Assembly: GCF_004210375.1 (NCBI RefSeq)
Contig: NC_134830.1
Location: forward strand, 44,521,094-44,585,093
Reading direction: 5' to 3'
Source of the DNA: Tachypleus tridentatus
Lineage: Eukaryota > Arthropoda > Merostomata > Xiphosura > Limulidae
Length of the DNA: 64,000 bases
Below are positions 22,149-63,099 of the stretch, piece by piece. Under the pieces are notes generated by a model, which saw only the letters and a list, made by a program, of their open reading frames with translations, searched no databases and had not been told where the DNA came from. The translations under genes and the position numbers were made by a program. Numbering within the stretch: position 1 is the first letter of the stretch; every line of letters begins with the position of its first letter.

Positions 22149-23427
22149 TCAGGTCATCCCATAAGTAATGTCCGAAAATTTAATACAGAAAGTGCATCAT
22201 CATTTCTGTCTTTGTAGAAGGTTTTAATGACTAAAATATGTAGTAGGACGTGCATAAAAATGTTCAGACAAATAACAGAAACTAACCCAACTCCACGTTT
22301 TCAGATCATTAATCAAATAAACCCCTATGAAGATGGATGTGTCTAAGGACCACATTAGGCATATAATGATTTATGAGTTTAAAAAAGGCAACAGTGCAGC
22401 AAAAACCACACGAAACATTCAAGGTGTTTATGGTGCGGAGTCTCTTAATGAAAAAAAATGTCGAAGGTGGTTTCAGAAGTTCAAATCACGTCACTACAGC
22501 TTAAGTGATGTGCCACGTTCAGGTCGTCCTGTTGAGTTTAATGATGACTTGCTGCTGGCTGGACTTGATGAAGATTGTGCTGTAACAGTTGAAGAACTAG
22601 CACAAAAGCTTAATCCAACTCATTCAACAGTTCACCGTCATCTGCAACAGCTTGGAAAATGGGTTCCCCATGATTTGACACAAGCCAACCTTAGAGCAAG
22701 AGTGAACATTTGCATTTCTCTGCACTCTCGTGAACGTAACTCACCTTTTTTTGGACACGTTAGTGACTAGAGATGAAAAATGGATATATTATAAAAAATT
22801 TAAGCGCTGCAGACAATGCCTCAGTACAGGTAAACTGGCTAAACACAGCCAAAAATGGACCTCCACCATAGGAAAGTCTTGTTAAACGTTTGGTGGAATA
22901 TTGTTGGTGTGATCCACTTTGAGTTGCTGCCACTCAATGTTACGATTACATTAGATTTCTATTGTCAACAGTTATAGTACTTGAATGTTACAGTGAAAGA
23001 AGAGAGGCCTGCTTTGCTCAATCGTAAAGGTGTAGTGTTACACCAGGATAATGCACGGCCCCATACAGTAAAGATCACATTTGCAAAGATTAAAGAACTA
23101 TACTGGGAAAAACTTCCACATCCTCCTTATTCTCCAGACCTTTCCCCATCTGATTATCATATATTCCGAAGTTTTCAGAATTATTTTGATGGATAAAGAG
23201 CTCAGAACACATAAAGATGTCAAAACTACCCTCTCTACATTCTTTTCCTCCAAACCCCAAGAATTTTACAGAAGTGGCATTCAGAAGCTTGTGGATCGTT
23301 AGTAGAAAAAAATTAATAATAATGGAACATACATTACTGAGTAAATAACATTAAAAGTGTTTGAAATTCTTTCTATTTTTCTGAACCTGTCGGTTCAGAA
23401 TCGGACATTAATTAAAGGATGGCCTGA
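22149..23427 (+). mobile_element. Complete mariner element, inactive
   Basis: The element is 1279 bp, the usual mariner size. It is bounded by TA target duplications (22147-22148 and 23428-23429) and by terminal inverted repeats. The left end reads TCAGGTCATCCCATAAGTAA; the right end, reversed, reads TCAGGCCATCCTTTAATTAA. Both continue into TGTCCGA. The transposase inside is frameshifted. The N-terminal sequence resembles the Hsmar1/SETMAR type of mariner. Confidence 0.93.
22327..23302 (+). pseudogene. Mariner transposase (D,D34D), frameshifted
   Basis: The reading frame begins MKMDVSKDHIRHIM and includes the paired helix-turn-helix region (NEKKCRRWFQKF, SGRPVEF, THSTVHRHLQQLGKWVPHDL). It shifts frame in a T-run near 22750. 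All three catalytic aspartates remain: RDEKW (codon at 22772), HQDNARPHT (23047) and PSDYHIF (23152). The last two are separated by exactly 34 residues. A stop lies near 22815, the frame breaks again around 22870-22980, and a frameshift near 23190 puts the C-terminus (ELRTHKDVK to QKLVDR) in another frame. It cannot make a full transposase. Confidence 0.92.
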
Positions 23428-31045: not shown

Positions 31046-31182
31046 TTTATGTGCAAAAACGGCTCGTTTGGGTTGAGAAAATATTTGACATAGAAGAGCG
31101 AACAACGTTTCGACCTTCTTCGATGACCGCTCTTCTATGTCAAATATTTTCTCAACCCAAACGAGCCGTTTTTGCACATAAA
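31046..31182. repeat. Perfect 55-bp inverted repeat at the Penelope-like 3' end
   Basis: Arms 31046-31100 and 31128-31182 are exact reverse complements with a 27-base spacer (contains ACGTTTCGACCTTCTTCGAT). A related single unit lies just left at 30953-31045. Head-to-head terminal repeats are known for Penelope-like elements. Confidence 0.9.
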
Positions 31183-31267
31183 CGTTTCGACCTTCTTCGG
31201 TCATCGTCAGGCTCACAAAGAAAGAAAGAGGTAACTGACCGGAAGCTGACCACATATTTGGAAGGTG

Positions 31268-32372
31268 TTATGTAATGAGTGTCGGAATGTAGAGGGCAGT
31301 GTTAGATGTTTGAATATATAATTTTATATTATTTATTTTATTATTTTTATATAGATATAAAGGTGTTCCTTTGTATTGGTTTATTTTGGGCCTAAGTTGT
31401 TGTGTAAGTGAGGCTTCTTTAATTTTGAGTTTGTTTATGTTTGTTTCTTTATTTAGTATTTGAGTGTTTTCTATGGTTATGTTGTGTTTATTTGACTTGC
31501 AGTGTTCGAAAACGTGTGAAGGTGACTTTTTATGTTCTTTGAATCTGGTTTCCATTTTTCTACTTGTTTCTCTAATATAGAAGTCGTGGCAGTTATCACA
31601 TTGCATTTTATAAATAATGTTGGTGTGGTGTTTGTCAGTGTAGTTTTTACATAGTATAGACCTCAGTTTTGTGCCTGGTTTTTGAATAAATTTGGTATTA
31701 ACTGGAATGTTATATTTTGTTACTAGTTTTTTGCCAAATGTTGGTTATTTTTCTGCTGATGTCGGGAACATATGGTATGCAGCAGTATATGGTTTCGTGA
31801 TTTTTTGATTCGTGAGATATATTTACTTTTGTTGGTTGTTTTTCCTTTATGTCTAGGTGTGTGCGTGTAATGTTTTCTACGGTTTGTGGAGGAAACTTCT
31901 TGATGTTGATGAAGTATTGAATTATTTTGTCTAATTCATCGTTAATTTTATCTGGTGAGCATAGCTTTATGGCTGTGTTTATTTGGTTTCTTAGTATGTT
32001 GAGTTTTTGTTTTGTTTCATGTGCTGAGTCCCAAGGAATGTATAGTCCAGTATGTGTGATTTTTCGGTGGATTTCTGTTTTAAATTGTATGTCGGTTCTT
32101 GTAATTTTGAAGTTAAAAAATGATATTTGATTGCTTTCTTCCTGTTCACATGTGAAGTTAATGTTGGGATATATAGAGTTAATGTAATTGAAAAAATTAA
32201 GTGTGTGTTCTGTAGATCTGAATCCCGAAATCGTGTCGTCTACATATCTGTACCAGTATAGTGGTGGATGTAATGCTGTGTTAATTGCTTGTGTTTCAAC
32301 TTGTGTCATAAAAGTATTAGCTAGAACTGGTGATACTGGGTTGCCCATGCTTCCATGGGTATTCAACCACTA
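31268..32372 (-). mobile_element. Penelope-like retroelement, 5'-truncated (RT + GIY-YIG)
   Basis: The minus strand codes for the C-terminal half of a Penelope-like polyprotein. An open frame at 32366-31710 has GSMGNPVSPVLANTFM (RT motif B) and YRYVDDTISGF (catalytic YVDD), then the connector. After a frame change, 31606-31268 holds the GIY-YIG endonuclease region (CDNCHDFYIRETSRKMETRFKEHKK). The usual GIG is changed to IRE here, while the other copy keeps IGETSR. Sequence upstream of RT motif B is missing: the similarity ends near 32372, as expected of 5' truncation. The 3' side runs into the inverted repeats at 30950-31215. Confidence 0.88.
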
Positions 32373-37460: not shown

Positions 37461-38536
37461 CTAGCTGGTCAAAAGTTTAAGACCATACCAAAAAGAATTC
37501 CTAAACAGAGTATGAAATGCCCAACAAGAGGTTTCACTAGTGAGTTTCACGGCCGTCATTGCGAATAACTTCAAACATTCGCTTTCACATGGTCGATATA
37601 AGCGTTTGCAGAAGGCTGGCTGGAAAGTTATTCCAAATGGTAAAGATGACTTCACAAAGATCATGCACTGTTTGGAATTGGCATCAGTTTCTATAGACTT
37701 CCCTTGCCATCCACCCCCAAATAGTTTAAGTTGAGTTCAGTTCGGGCGAACACGCTGGATGATCTAAAAGAATCACGTTATTCACCATAAAACAGTCCTT
37801 TGTCCTTCCGGCATTGTGGATTGCAGTGTTGTCCTGCTGAAAGATCCAGTCATTTCCACACAAGCGAGGTTCTTCAGTCAATAAGGATGCTCACTCCAAC
37901 ATGCCAATGTAGCCAGCTGCTGTTTGACGTCTTTGTATTACCTGAAGCTCCATTGCTCCATGGGAGGAGAAAGCAACCCAGATCATGATGGAAGCTCCTC
38001 CACTGTGTTGTGTAGAAAATGTTTCTAGTGGGATATCCTTATCGTGCCAATAACGTTGGAAGCCATCTGGACCATACAGATTATTTTTTTTTCTCATCAG
38101 AGAACAAAACCTTCTTCCACTTTTCTACGTCCCATGTTTGGTGCTTCTCAGTAAAGTTTAACCGAGCTGTTTCGTGGTGTGGAAGAAGGCGTGGCCTTTA
38201 AAGACGTTTACGGTTTTTAAAGCTTTTCTCTCGTAGATGCCGTCTTATTGTTCTTGAGCTGCATTCTGCGTCCGTAAGGGCCTTAATCTTGTTCGACGAT
38301 CGGCTGGTGTCTTGTCGGACAACACGTCGAATCCTCCTGCTTGACGCCGGCGAAATTTTCTTGGGCCGACCACTTGAAATTCTCGTTCCGTATCCCTCAG
38401 GATCTTTTAAGAAATTTGCAACAGCAGTTTTACTACACCCAATCTCACCAGTGATGGCACGTTGAAAGAGACCTTGCTTTTGCAGCTTGACAATTCTGCC
38501 ACGTTCAAACTCTATCAACTTTTTAGCCTTTGCCAT
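37461..38536 (-). pseudogene. Tc1-type transposase, broken
   Basis: The minus-strand reading starts MAKAKKLIEFERGRIVKLQ at 38536 and holds an intact 112-residue DNA-binding part (HTH, SGRPKKISP linker, TSRSSNKIKALT) down to 38198. The catalytic part continues in another frame ([37 protein letters not shown]). Past further frame changes it keeps IFQQDN and HPACSPELN near 37700-37850. The ends of the catalytic core are scattered over frames, so the element is dead. The order agrees with Tc1/Tc3 transposases of about 340 residues. Confidence 0.85.
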
Positions 38537-53769: not shown

Positions 53770-54860
53770 GTTTTCCACTCTGACAAGAGAAAATATTAGG
53801 ATATATCTATGACGCTCACTCAGTTTGGAGGGGGTTAGACTGAAGGCAACTAGTCAATATCAACCACCGCCTAAACCCGAGCTACCTTTGATGAGATAAT
53901 GATAGTTCACTGTAATTGTTGTAGAGCGCTCATAGTCCTTAAGTCAGGAGCATATTTTTCCAAAAACGAGACCAGAACATTTGGATTTACAATCTGATCA
54001 ACCTCGCCAGTAGGCCACGACCATTTTAAAGAATTTGTGTTTTATAACTCTAATTTTGGAGTTGTATAATTTCCAAGTTTCTTCTTGGTCACAAGTTAAC
54101 AGTTATTCCCTGTTTACTCTCACTGTGTTTGTCTTTATTACTTCATTATGATTCTGATTTTTTAAATATATTAATTGAAAAGAAACTGATTTTTGATTTA
54201 TTATTAAAATATTGACCAGAGAAAAAATTTTAGTAGGTTTTAAATATATATATACAAACTTGCAATCTTATGACTTTTTAGTAAACATGTTTTTATATAG
54301 CAAACTATCCTACTTGAAGTTTCAATAATTTATATTCCAACTATAAAATAAACACAAATAAAATATATATCTTACAACTTCTTGTTGAAGCTAAGAATAT
54401 TCTAATGCCACTTTGACTTTAATTATGAATACTTTAGTAGCAGTAACAATTAGTACCAAAAACAATATTGTAACAGTTATGTTCTTGGACGGGTCCTTTT
54501 GCATTATTCAGTAAAAAATTATGACAAGTCCACTTCGCCTAACATTAACAATTTAGTTTATTTCTTCTATAACGTTACTATAGGTTCCTTTACACGAATT
54601 ATAGGTTTAAGTTCATTCACAAAAAAACATTGCAATAGAAATTTCAAAATTGACGGTATCTATGCCTAAGTTACAAAAACTTATTTTCAGAATTTCCTTG
54701 CTAATGGTCGATTAACTGAATAGACGCAATAGCCCTCACTAATACTACTGATCTGAAATGCTCGCTTAATATTTATTAATCTTTCATATAGAATTACCTC
54801 ACTGCTTCACTGATTTATATACTTGTAATCAAACTCGTTTAATACCTACTCCAAATAGTC
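53770..54860. other. No recognised gene
   Basis: AT-rich with no long frames. Confidence 0.4.
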
Positions 54861-55366
54861 GGGCATGTATAATAGGTCTGCCTGCACCCCCCCATGATCC
54901 TCTGAAACCAACTTTTTTTGAAAGTTTTTAGGATACTTTTGAAGATTAAATATGTTTCCGGTTGCGCTTTTATGGTATAAGGGGGTTTTCTGGCTCTTTT
55001 CAAAATGGCCGCCACCGAAAATCGTAAAATTACACAATATATATGAAATGATCATTATTTGCATCCACTTGGCCTATAATATTTAAATTGTTGTTATTCA
55101 CTTATGTATAAAGCACAAATTGGACCAAAATATGGAATTTTGAAATTTTGTGACATGGCAGAAATCCAAGATGGGGGCCAAATTTTGGTGCATTTTCGCA
55201 AAATCGCTCATAACTTTTGAACCAGTTAACGTATAAAGTTGATTTTGGTGTCAAACCATATGTTTTGCCACATAAGAAACTCAATAGAACCATAATTAGA
55301 ATGATTCATCCAACCCTAGCCATATTAGCAACATAATAACTGTGCACAATGAGTGCAAAGTGATTC
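54860..55366. other. Non-coding sequence next to the TIR element
   Basis: It holds AAAATGGCCGCCACC, CCAAGATGGGGGCCAAATTT and ATCGCTCATAACTTTTGAAC, a low-complexity style that I associate with the ends of the unclassified family above. There are no convincing ORFs; short minus-strand frames read as noise. Confidence 0.35.
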
Positions 55367-55473
55367 ATGCCATTTTCCGAAAAACGCCCTATTTTTCCAC
55401 TCTATACTCAATGCTTCGTACATTTGATTTCCAACATTTTTCTGAACTAGTTACATAACAAATGACCTTATTC
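55367..55473 (+). repeat. Left 107-bp terminal inverted repeat
   Basis: It pairs with 57342-57448. Mismatches cluster near its outer third (CGCCCTATTTTT against CACCTTATTATT); the inner 70 bases carry a single change. Confidence 0.85.
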
Positions 55474-55836
55474 AGCAATTTTTAGAAATGTTTTGTACAA
55501 GCCTATACTGAATAAACACTTGTTAAAAAATATGTATTTCTGGTCACATATGGCACACACACATACTACACATCAGTAAAACATATAAAAATAACATAGT
55601 AATCAAATAAGATATATAAGTTGCAATATATACAGGTATAGTAAAAACACTATAAACATGACGAATAATGCATTGTAACATGTCATTTCAAAATATCTTT
55701 CTTTGTTATAGGTGGCATAATTACCAATCGACGGTGGTTAACAAGACTCACAGACTTAGAGCTTTCCTTATTCCTAGTGGTGTCGGTGATCTAATATTGT
55801 AGTTGTAGAGACACTTCAACATATGTCTGCATTACC

Positions 55837-57121
55837 ATGCCCAAAGCAAAATCTAAAACTTGTGGTGGTGGCACTGACTCTGGTGATGGTCCAGCTAAAA
55901 AACAATCACGCCTGCCAGTTTGTATTATACACACTGATGGCATAAAAAATGCAGGGAACCTGACTTTGATTTCCAGCCTTTCAGATCCACAAAGAAGGTA
56001 CAATGAAATTTGTAACATAAGGGACAGGCGATTGTTGCTACCAAAAAATTCAACAGAAAGAAGAAAGTCGGCATGTTCCCTCATCCCAGAAATTCTCCAA
56101 GATCACCATGGGTATCACAGAAATTGCTACCAGCAATTCACTAATCATCTGGACCAGCTTACCTTGCTTGATCCTACTAGTGTATCACAAAGCACCACAC
56201 GTCAAGACTCTGTGCAAGGCACATCAAATCCTTCTCGTAGATCCTTCACACAGGGAGATCACATTCTGTTCAAGAAAGACTATATATTCTGCAACAAAGT
56301 TGGGCGTATCAAAGTCAAGATTGCAGGAAATTGGGAACAGCATTCCACGTCAACGTTCGAGTACGGGGGCGGTCAAACTGTTATTGATATTGCCACAAGC
56401 CGCAATGATGACAGACTTCTAACACGCATATGTGGACAAGACCTCTTTGCTTGTGAAGCCCAGTATCACCCGAATTGCAGAAAGAAGTATACATCAAACC
56501 CTGCGCTATGGAACAGCAAAGACCCTGAGAACATCAAACAACAAGCAGGTCTGGAGGAGGCACACCAGAATGCCCTGCAGAAAGTTGTCGATTATGTTTC
56601 CAACACCATAATAGTGGAGCAAAATGTTGTCATGTTATCGCACCTTCGACGTTTGTATGCTACTGAATTGCAGCAAACACGCTATGACAATCCACACTAC
56701 AGAGCTGAGAAACGCAAGGACAAATTACAGAAACACCCAGAATTAGGTTCCAAACTTGAGTTCACATTGGTTGAGACAGGTCGTGGCAAACTGCAGCACC
56801 AAAACATCTAGTGCTATCGCTAAAGCTTACCAGCTTGCTTCACAAGATCCGATGAGAGATGTGGCCATGATCCTTCATGGAGCTATCTCGCAGGCATATG
56901 AGCAAGCAGACGATGCTCAAGAGAAATGGCCCCCAGACCCAATGGAATTGATTGTCCAAGATGGGGTGATTCCACATGTACTTCAACGGTTTCTGGGTCT
57001 GGTTTTGACAGGTAGCGAAACGGTTAAGACATCACGAGCTGAACGCATCATGCTCTCCATTGGCCAGGACATATGCCGAGCAGTAATTAATGGAAAGTGG
57101 AAGCTGCCTAAACACCATTGA
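55837..57121 (+). pseudogene. Unclassified Cys/His-rich protein of an invertebrate repeat family, frameshifted
   Basis: The start ATG has a good context (ACCATGCCC). Frame 1 gives 324 residues to 56811. It has a conserved HxxxC-Y motif (HGYHRNCYQQFTNHL, residues 91-105) and a second cluster ICGQDLFACEAQYHPNCRKKY (C199, C206, H211, C214), likely zinc-binding. From about 56756 the next frame continues in sense: VVANCSTKTSSAIAKAY, AMILHGAISQAYEQAD, KWPPDPMEL, RIMLSIGQDICRAV, ending GKWKLPKHH at 57121. The protein therefore needs a frame change near 56760-56800. I recognise it as the N-terminal part of a large, multicopy, unnamed family (WPP, SIAQDI and PKH motifs) in chelicerates, cnidarians and other invertebrates, usually about 1000 residues. 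The C-terminal two thirds is missing. Function is unknown. Confidence 0.7.
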
Positions 57122-57341
57122 GTTCTTCTCCTCAGACGACGACTTGGACAATGAAGTATAAAGAAACAATGTGGTTTCATGATAATGTTTTTTTTGTTTG
57201 TTCATGTTCAAATGGTTATTCTTGTAACAATGTATGTTTGATTACATTGATTAATGTTTCATGAATACTTACTTGGTTTTTTCTTTGTATGTAGTGATAT
57301 TAATACCATATAAAATAGCGATACTATCTTATACAACAGCA

Positions 57342-57448
57342 GAATAAGGTCATTTGTTATGTACCTAGTTCAGAAAAATGTTGGAAATCAAATGTACGAA
57401 GCATTGAGTATAGAGTGGAATAATAAGGTGTTTTTCGGAAAATGGCAT
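57342..57448 (-). repeat. Right 107-bp terminal inverted repeat
   Basis: It is the reverse complement of 55367-55473 apart from about four bases. Similarity ends sharply at GGAAAATGGCAT; outside it the two flanks are unrelated. Confidence 0.85.
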
Positions 57449-57754: not shown

Positions 57755-58753
57755 AGCGAACAACGTTTTGACCTTCTTCGGTCATCATCAGGTTCACAAA
57801 AAAAGTAAGGGAAACTAACTGGTAGCTGACCACATGTTTGAAGGCAATTGTGTAGTTGAGTGTAGGAATGTAGAGGGCGTGCTTAGATGTTGGATATATT
57901 TATTAATATAGGTATAAAGGTGTTCCATTTCATTTATATTGGTTTATTTTTAGCTTGAGTTGTTGTATAAGTAAGGCTTCTTTAATTTTGCATTTGTTTG
58001 TGTTTGTTTCTTTATTTAGTATTTAGGTGTTTTCTATGGTTATGTTGTGTTTATTTGATTTGCAGTGTTTGAAAACGTGTGAAGGTGACTTTTTGTGTTC
58101 TTTGAATCTGGTTTCCATTTTTTCTACTTGTTTCTCCAATATAGAAGTCGCGGCAGTTATCACATTGTATTTTATAAATAATGTTGGTGTGGTGTTTGTC
58201 AGTGTAGTTTTTACATAGTATAGACCTTAGTTTTGTGTCTGGTTTTTGAATAAATTTGGTATTAACTGGAATGCGATGTTTTGTTACTAGTTTTTGCCAA
58301 ATGTTGGTTATTTTTTTGCTGATGTCAGGAATATATGGCATGCAGCAGTATATGGTTTCGTGATTTTGTTAAATCGAGTGGTGTATTTACTTTTATTAGT
58401 TAATTTTGCTTTTTGTCTAGGTGTGTGCGTATAATGATTTTTACGGTTTGTGGAGGAAACTTGTTTATGTTGATGAAATACTTTTTATTTTGTTTAATTC
58501 ATCATTAATTTTATCTGGTAAACATAGTTTTATGGCTGTATTTATTTGGTTTTTTAGCATGTTCAGTTTTTGTTTTGTTTCAGCACAGTTTTATGGCTGT
58601 GTTTATTTGGTTTTTTAGTATGTTGAGTTTTTGTTTTGTTTCATGTGCTGAGTCCCAAGGAATGTATAGTCCAGTATGGGTGATTTTTCGGTGGATTCCT
58701 ATTTTAAATTGTGTATCGGTTCTTGTAATTTTGAGGTTAAGAAATGATATTTG
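57755..58753 (-). mobile_element. Second Penelope-like copy, 5'-truncated and frameshifted
   Basis: It is clearly the same family as 31190-32110 by nucleotide similarity. The minus strand reads MPYIPDISKKITNIWQKL and the endonuclease region CDNCRDFYIGETSRKNGN, keeping the G that is lost in the first copy. The catalytic YVDD region is absent, because similarity stops near 58753. About 56-60 bases (CAGTTTTATGGCTGT to TTTGTTTCA) are tandemly duplicated near 58523-58640. The terminal motif GCGAACAACGTTTTGACC lies at 57756. Confidence 0.85.
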
Positions 58754-61476: not shown

Positions 61477-62806
61477 TTATATTGTAGCATTCTCTTTTTC
61501 CTTAACGAAAGAGTTATTTAGTAAATGCTTATAGCGCTCGGCATTTTTAAGCACATAGAAAGGTGCATCATCATAAGTGAAAACGATTCTTCCCACCACT
61601 GTCTTAGTGTTATCAAACCATAGACCATTACGTATCAATGACTTGATATAAGTTAGGTTGTATTTCTCTGGGAAGTCGCCCCATCGGATTCCGTCATCAT
61701 TTTGGGCAGAACGAAGTTTTATCTGAATGTCAGCAGGACTGAAGCACCAAGAACAATGCCAACCTGCATGGAATTCATTCGAACCTAAGAACCATGGATT
61801 GAGAGATGCATTATAGTTGTTGTTCGATGCTCTTCTATACGTTTCCCGCATATCCTGACGACGCAATTGGATTGCGTCGTTTTTCCATACTTCTTTTAAT
61901 GCTTTAATGGTACAAACAGCTCTTATAAACGTTGTCTTTTGGAGTTGCTGCCAAAAGAAACCGTACAGGAACCATTTCAAGTTAAGAAAGATTGGTTCTG
62001 AATAACCATCATATTGTCTAAGAAATTCTAAGACTTCGGCTTTTGGAATTTCATCTGCATCATTCAAAACAAATAAATCATCGCTGTTAAGACCGCTGAG
62101 CTGTGATAGACCCTGTTGTCCTAAAAATGTCCGAAGATAATCATCAGCTGCCCAACCGTTTACTCGACCATCTTCTGGAAAATGATCCAAGAAAACATAG
62201 ACAATCTTTTCTTGGAACTGCTGTAAAAAACCTTTCTGTAAGCTTTCAAATAATCGCAGAGGTTTTCCTTCACCTTTAGCAGTATAGTTGGACTCACACA
62301 CAAGAAAAATATCCACCTTGTGGTGAAGTTCCCACACACGTATCTCGAATAATTCCAACTCGTTATTAATATTGATGGCGTTAATCACTCTTCGAGGTCT
62401 AGCCCTTTGTTTAAGTTGATCTCTGATCCAAGGAAATGTAGACTCTGAGAACGACTGAGGAAAACCACAGTCCTTTCCGTTCCAACCTCGTAAACAAACA
62501 CAACTTCGATCATCGCCTTCTAGAGTCGTCTTTGTCAGATTAGTTCCCGCTATCAAACACGTTAAGTTTTGTGAAATTGTAACAAACCCACTTTTATGAA
62601 AGGTTACTAGTTTAAAATTTTCGACGTACAGTGGACTTATAAAGCTTCCAAATTTATAACTAATTTTTCTGGGTCTGGTGCTATTCTTCTGAAGAAATGA
62701 ACTTTTTGGTGCGTGTTGATGTATAAACACACCGAAGAAGGTTAAAACGAGAAATACTCCCACCAGTCTTCTTTTCAACTTTTCTTTCACGAACTGATTT
62801 TTATTC
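61477..62806 (-). CDS. MGAT3: Beta-1,4-mannosyl-glycoprotein 4-beta-N-acetylglucosaminyltransferase (GT17), last exon
   Basis: This Golgi type II membrane enzyme adds the bisecting GlcNAc to the core mannose of N-glycans. The exon encodes 442 residues to the stop; human MGAT3 has 533. A hydrophobic anchor at exon residues 13-29 follows basic KEKLKRR. An EGF-like cysteine cluster (CVCLRGWNGKDC) lies at 102-113. The GT17 core starts at PRRVINAININ (138-147), followed by VCESNYTA, YVFLDHFP, the acidic DADE at 249-252 (likely nucleotide-sugar or metal binding) and AGWHCSWCF at 347-355. Several N-glycosylation sequons are present. On the minus strand a splice acceptor (CCCTTTTACAG) precedes base 62806, and the exon starts with the third base of a codon. 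The open frame does continue to an ATG at 62931, but that part reads as intron. The start must lie in an upstream exon that I could not find. No internal damage is seen. Confidence 0.95.
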
Positions 62807-63099
62807 CTGTAAAAGGGAAAGAAACATTGGCTTGAGATATCTATTTGGAAATAATGAGACATAAAAACCACGAAGAAGTAACTTTGATAAAAATGGTTAT
62901 TTATATTTTCATTGTTCATATTAATATTCAAGAGCAGATATTTTCCAAATATTTTTTTTAGGTTATAATTGGTGGGTTAATTATCATTAAATTTTAAATA
63001 AACATCATTGTTAGAATTGAAACTACAACAATTGTTATGGTGTGGGCGTCATTTAGAAGCTGGCAAAGCGTGGTGTAATTAATCATATTTATCATAAAA

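Follow-up and report, generated by a model that had tools for sequence, protein, structure and literature searches.

A deleted copy of a terminal-inverted-repeat DNA transposon, most likely of the Academ superfamily, in Tachypleus tridentatus

Structure of the element in the window

The DNA analyzed here is a stretch of 64,000 nucleotides from Tachypleus tridentatus (the window), in which the first-pass annotation had described two inverted arms around a coding region. These arms are real, as blastn within the window aligned 55367-55473 with 57342-57448 in inverted orientation over 107 nt without gaps and with 103/107 identical positions (E = 4e-47, which excludes chance), and a second comparison within the window extended them to 110 nt at 95%. 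The 107-bp arms had also been taken as the termini of the element, a reading that was ruled out by other copies, in which the repeat continues outward for ~510 bp past the arm. The terminal inverted repeats are ~620-640 bp long in well-aligned copies, some others, for example L008, L028 and L059 (inner repeat partly deleted), aligning shorter or worse across them, and the arms make up about their inner sixth. In other copies the outer end of the repeat opens with TAGTCGGGCATGTATAATAGG, and the ends read TAGTCGG. The left end of the window copy is located at 54856 and is flanked by AAA. Its right repeat is cut off after 57448 and lacks the outer ~510 bp, for which blastn revealed no second place in the window, the left flank matching itself alone. 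Since the right end is lost, the window copy's own target duplication cannot be checked. The features of the copy are as follows.

54856..55473, + strand: left terminal inverted repeat, 618 bp when counted up to the arm's last base and at most ~640 bp in well-aligned copies, starting with TAGTCGGGCATGTATAATAGG
55367..55473, + strand: left 107-bp arm, the inner part of the left terminal repeat
55837..56808, + strand: N-terminal part of the element protein, 324 codons up to the effect of the frameshift, containing Cys and His
56756..57118, + strand: open frame carrying the same protein onward (from ~56792) after a 23-base deletion and ending at the junction (...KWKLPKH)
57117..57119, no strand: internal-deletion junction, common to L030, L036, L037 and L042
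57119..57161, + strand: remnant of the C-terminal acidic tail (..EFFSSDDDLDNEV, stop), out of frame with the preceding part
57342..57448, - strand: right 107-bp arm, the inner part of the right terminal repeat, whose outer ~510 bp are missing

The single plus-strand coding region of the first-pass annotation was confirmed, with 324 codons at 55837-56808 followed by another frame to 57118. Relative to copy L013 the frame is 23 bases short, and the window copy is therefore frameshifted; this loss and the mapped internal junction bear out the description of the copy as a frameshifted, internally deleted derivative of a longer element. The frameshift is private to the window copy and may be a later event. 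In the L013/L031 copy the corresponding frame comprises 463 codons from stop to stop and 449 from the first Met.

The element protein is presumably a member of a widespread invertebrate family. Profile searches gave matches that we take as chance: all Pfam matches were below cut-off (MADF, E = 0.008; PHD_NSD, 0.044; zf_RING_Vps8, 0.067), PHROGs gave two weak matches (phrog_17926, E = 0.0066; an HNH family, 0.25), and the PDB gave none for the N-terminal part and chance-level matches for the C-terminal part (hexatoxin, 0.28; galactokinase, 1.3). No relatives of the protein were confirmed in viral contigs. An AlphaFold2 model of the window protein alone had a mean pLDDT of 35 and was left unused.

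Copies in the genome and their insertion signature

The left arm was searched against the genome (2,167,478,450 bases, 2.17 Gb, in 205 contigs). At least 40 scored matches (59 candidates) were obtained, located at 30 places by our count, and among these scored matches 10 inverted pairs with a spacing of ~1.8-2.2 kb were observed. The whole 2082-bp stretch bounded by the arms was matched by four copies at 93-95%. Alignment of the copies placed the ends ~510 bp outside the arms, and directly outside these ends an exact 3-bp target duplication was present in all 19 distinct insertions for which a single locus holds both ends, a 4-bp duplication in none (0/19). The duplicated sequences were ATA (six insertions), GTA and TAT (two each) and nine others found once each. 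A twentieth insertion, on C2, has its ends in the overlapping loci L052 and L047 and reads TCC on both sides, which brings the count to 20/20 with 3 bp; a 3-base match is expected by chance at ~1/64, somewhat more in AT-rich DNA. The flanks differ between copies, save for dispersed repeats and three probable local duplications, at C14 (L033/L027), C7 (L044/L045) and C12 (L007/L008).

The two members of the C7 pair (C7:106736056-106750060) are nearly identical, lie 10.45 kb from each other and each have a rearranged left repeat. L007 and L008 (C12:74148369 and C12:74144554), together with L024 and L028, are 1.0-1.3 kb versions holding hardly more than the ends; L008, L024 and L028 carry 3-bp duplications, while the left end of L007 is incomplete.

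In a protein search of the genome with the N-terminal part, 24 places had a stretch matching at 54% identity or more, a count that excludes a 34-residue match of 50% at C10:135662869. The 23 of these that were read (all but C19:68956771) each adjoin at least one terminal repeat, and copies of the open frame lacking the repeats were thus not seen among them; at some, such as L019, L026, L033 and L041, one end is seen alone or one end is incomplete. Conversely, the arms do not occur mostly without the frame, as 19 of the 30 places found with the arm alone hold a piece of the N-terminal frame (L026 just ~20 codons). Three more hold the C-terminal part without the N-terminal frame, four consist of ends plus no more than ~43 codons of the C-terminal tail, and four are truncated, undetermined or unread. 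Inverted repeats thus bound multi-copy units with unlike flanks and a target duplication of fixed length, the characteristics of TIR transposons. The element in the window is a copy of a TIR cut-and-paste DNA transposon, and the same ends and duplications at many places uphold the proposal that such a transposon carries the open frame.

The C-terminal half and superfamily assignment

In copies L060/L015 (C3), L059 and L063 (C11) the coding N-terminus is absent, and the C-terminal part is retained instead, between the same ends. In L015 this part comprises 481 codons between stops. The C-terminal half contains the motifs QEETDTRIVLY, VVVRSPDSDIF and FTGEDANCAFKGKGK (in short QEETDTR / SPDSDIF / FTGEDA), which are present in L060/L015 and fainter in relatives, and which, judged by eye, we take to follow the acidic-motif pattern of XPG/FEN-type nucleases. 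By these motifs the C-terminal half looks like an XPG/FEN-type nuclease, a reading for which HMMER searches of Pfam, PHROGs and the PDB gave no support.

In the diverged relative L067 (C1), a single unit of ~6.5 kb contains both N- and C-terminal matches, with an identity of 26-43% in the matches below E = 0.001; it is decayed and probably carries another insertion. At C12:38349624 and C13:23170399, a middle segment is located ~1.1 kb upstream of the C-terminal match. The arrangement N-terminus, middle, C-terminus is based on L067 and these two places. Since every close copy read has lost the middle of the protein, little weight can be put on the missing DDE motif in the window. No DDD/E triad could be named in the relatives L067-L070, which are decayed copies, no complete autonomous copy was found among the copies read, and the protein parts scanned gave no Pfam match to a helicase.

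The element had been called undescribed by the first-pass annotation. This was not established, as the 3-bp duplications and the nuclease-like part point to a known superfamily. AcademX, whose nuclease is XPG-like, is the best fit because of these two features, and membership in this lineage is probable. In one report, AcademX duplications are given as 3 or 4 bp and those of AcademH as 9 or 10 bp, the difference being ascribed to the encoded nuclease versus helicase (PMC10045372). The likeness to AcademX is one by description: it consists of the 3-bp duplications, the TIRs and a long protein with a nuclease-like part, the nuclease being seen here as motifs only and the DDD/E core being unobserved. 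The implied length of at least ~4.5 kb is compatible with the mean of 5565 bp stated for bivalve Academ elements in another report (PMC10294476). Repbase lists Academ among the DDD/E-transposase superfamilies (PMC9587614). Against the AcademX assignment stands an older account in which the enzyme named for Academ is a RecQ helicase instead of a nuclease (PMC3627910). AcademH, reported to belong to the same superfamily as AcademX, differs from the element in its 9 or 10 bp duplications, compared with 3 bp in 20/20 insertions here, and in its helicase (PMC10045372), of which the scanned parts of our protein show no Pfam match.

The strongest competing explanation, to which we give a minor but real chance, is a DNA transposon with the same life cycle that belongs to a superfamily other than Academ, either PIF/Harbinger, CACTA/EnSpm or one still undescribed. 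PIF/Harbinger elements prefer TWA as duplication, a type seen here in just 2/20 duplications (TTA and TAA), and CACTA/EnSpm elements end in CACTA/G, whereas the ends here read TAGTCGG; PIF/Harbinger was rejected on the former ground and CACTA/EnSpm on the latter. To our knowledge, a C-terminal nuclease-like part has not been described from either of them. What speaks for this explanation is that duplications of 3 bp are likewise reported for PIF/Harbinger (PMC2213677). Most likely, the element is a new family of a known kind, namely Academ. No paper describing it was recognized among titles and abstract openings on Academ and AcademH/AcademX, a result that does not imply its absence from Repbase or Dfam. 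Should the Academ assignment be correct, there is nothing unusual in the find as such.

Internal deletions, decay and origin of the copies

For mapping of the deletions, two references were used, window 54857-57118 on the left and L060 on the right, and 33 copies (32 entries, L007 and L008 being in one) were compared with both. Breakpoints to the right of 57118, where the left reference stops, are unplaceable, and all breakpoints are uncertain by a few bases. A junction was identified in 28/33 copies, and 19 of the junctions are distinct (L032 and L034 counted as the same); L018, L019, L023, L026 and L066 have none. The window junction is found in five copies, namely the window copy, L030, L036, L037 and L042. 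The latter four have duplications of their own (ATA, TAT, TTC and TAA), from which we infer that this derivative moved after it had arisen. The left breakpoint falls within 40 bp (window-equivalent 57079-57118) in 11/19 distinct junctions, those of L031, L032/L034, L033, L035, L038, L041, L043, L044, L047, L048 and the window class. In the other 8/19 it falls at 190-2173 in left-reference coordinates, and six of these breakpoints precede the start of the frame. The junction of L043 includes a filler of ~20 bases, and by eye several others show a few bases of microhomology. The clustering within 40 bp may reflect a site in the deleted part at which the polymerase stalls, or a single founder deletion that was repeatedly widened.

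Substitutions were tallied in 19 copies of the N-terminal frame, the C14 pair, a probable duplication, being counted as two copies. The majority sequence is free of stops, and the 506 differences from it comprise 344 replacing, 145 silent and 17 stop changes, compared with a neutral expectation of 67% / 27% / 5% derived from the mutation spectrum of these 506 differences. Relative to neutrality, the replacing/silent ratio is 0.96 for all changes and 0.93 for the 306 single-copy changes. In seventeen copies, 17-31 sites differ from the majority sequence across alignments of 944-1,272 bases; the C14 pair (L033/L027) differs at 45 and 43, with 28 changes in common that are found nowhere else. Of the sets of two to six copies that have a change in common, the 40 most frequent were considered; apart from the C14 pair, none appeared more than three times, and the five copies carrying the window junction were not conspicuous, so that no grouping by junction was seen. 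We read these sequences as the probable outcome of a single burst whose sources were nearly identical, with neutral decay thereafter. The window copy is a non-autonomous deletion derivative that was probably mobilized in trans during one burst; its own protein, truncated at ~codon 430, is unlikely to have moved it.

Exact duplications, conserved ends and variously lost coding parts are, as established in other families, the marks of cut-and-paste elements with incompletely repaired excision gaps. The window holds a dead non-autonomous copy of such an element, with TIRs of ~620-640 bp and 3-bp duplications, the superfamily being most likely Academ and the lineage AcademX. The two halves account for at least ~4.5 kb; with the missing middle added, the full element would have coded for one long protein with a Cys/His N-terminus, a DDD/E core in the middle and a C-terminal XPG/FEN-like nuclease. 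This protein would have excised the element at its ends and inserted it into breaks staggered by 3 bp, and interrupted repair of the excision gaps would have given rise to deletion derivatives keeping both ends. With enzyme from a longer copy, the derivatives would have moved in trans around one burst and decayed neutrally afterwards. Ds and KP are internal-deletion derivatives of Ac and P elements, respectively; they resemble the copies described here in the many internal deletions that keep the ends and are moved in trans, and differ in their transposase families.

The element might alternatively represent a transposon lineage outside the described superfamilies, combining a Cys/His N-terminus, an unrecognized core and an XPG/FEN-like nuclease, in which a strong stall or fragile site just after codon ~430 caused abortive repair to end mostly within the same 40 bp and one derivative class to dominate; we regard this as doubtful. 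Still less probable is a short element whose truncated N-terminal protein is functional, for example as a repressor, which is the role of KP of the P element, and is kept by selection. Nearly the same N-terminal ~420-435 codons are indeed retained by the 11/19 junctions with breaks within 57079-57118, and the L013/L031 frame stays open over 463 codons from one stop to the next, or 449 when counted from the first Met. However, the replacing/silent ratio is 0.93-0.96 of the neutral expectation, 17/506 changes are stops, and 8/19 junctions retain less of the N-terminus, six none of its coding part; selection for a short protein was judged unlikely on this neutral pattern of substitution. A host gene or foldback repeat merely located between inverted repeats is refuted by the protein-match places and target duplications, as identical ends, exact duplications and the same open frame recur at many places with unlike flanks, and is hardly credible.

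The preferred reading, a deletion derivative of a probable AcademX element, links an orphan protein family with a mobile element via its ends and target duplications, and genes of this family annotated as host proteins become suspect as transposon remnants. The 19 deletion junctions, in 11 of which the left break is confined to 40 bp, constitute a natural experiment on the repair of excision gaps.

Elsewhere in the window, neither tRNA genes nor Rfam families were detected. Two retroelement-like copies, ~87% alike, are located at 31181-31884 and 57762-58448, the former overlapping a reverse transcriptase open frame at 31710-32366 on the minus strand (RVT_1, E = 0.00013, below cut-off). The N-terminal part of a Mos1-type mariner transposase is encoded at 22327-22767 (HTH_48, E = 2.9e-20), and a piece of a Tc1/Tc3-like transposase, below the Pfam cut-off, lies at 38198-38536 on the minus strand. 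An open frame of 484 codons at 61477-62931, also on the minus strand, belongs to glycosyltransferase family 17 (E = 1.3e-32) and is probably a host gene.
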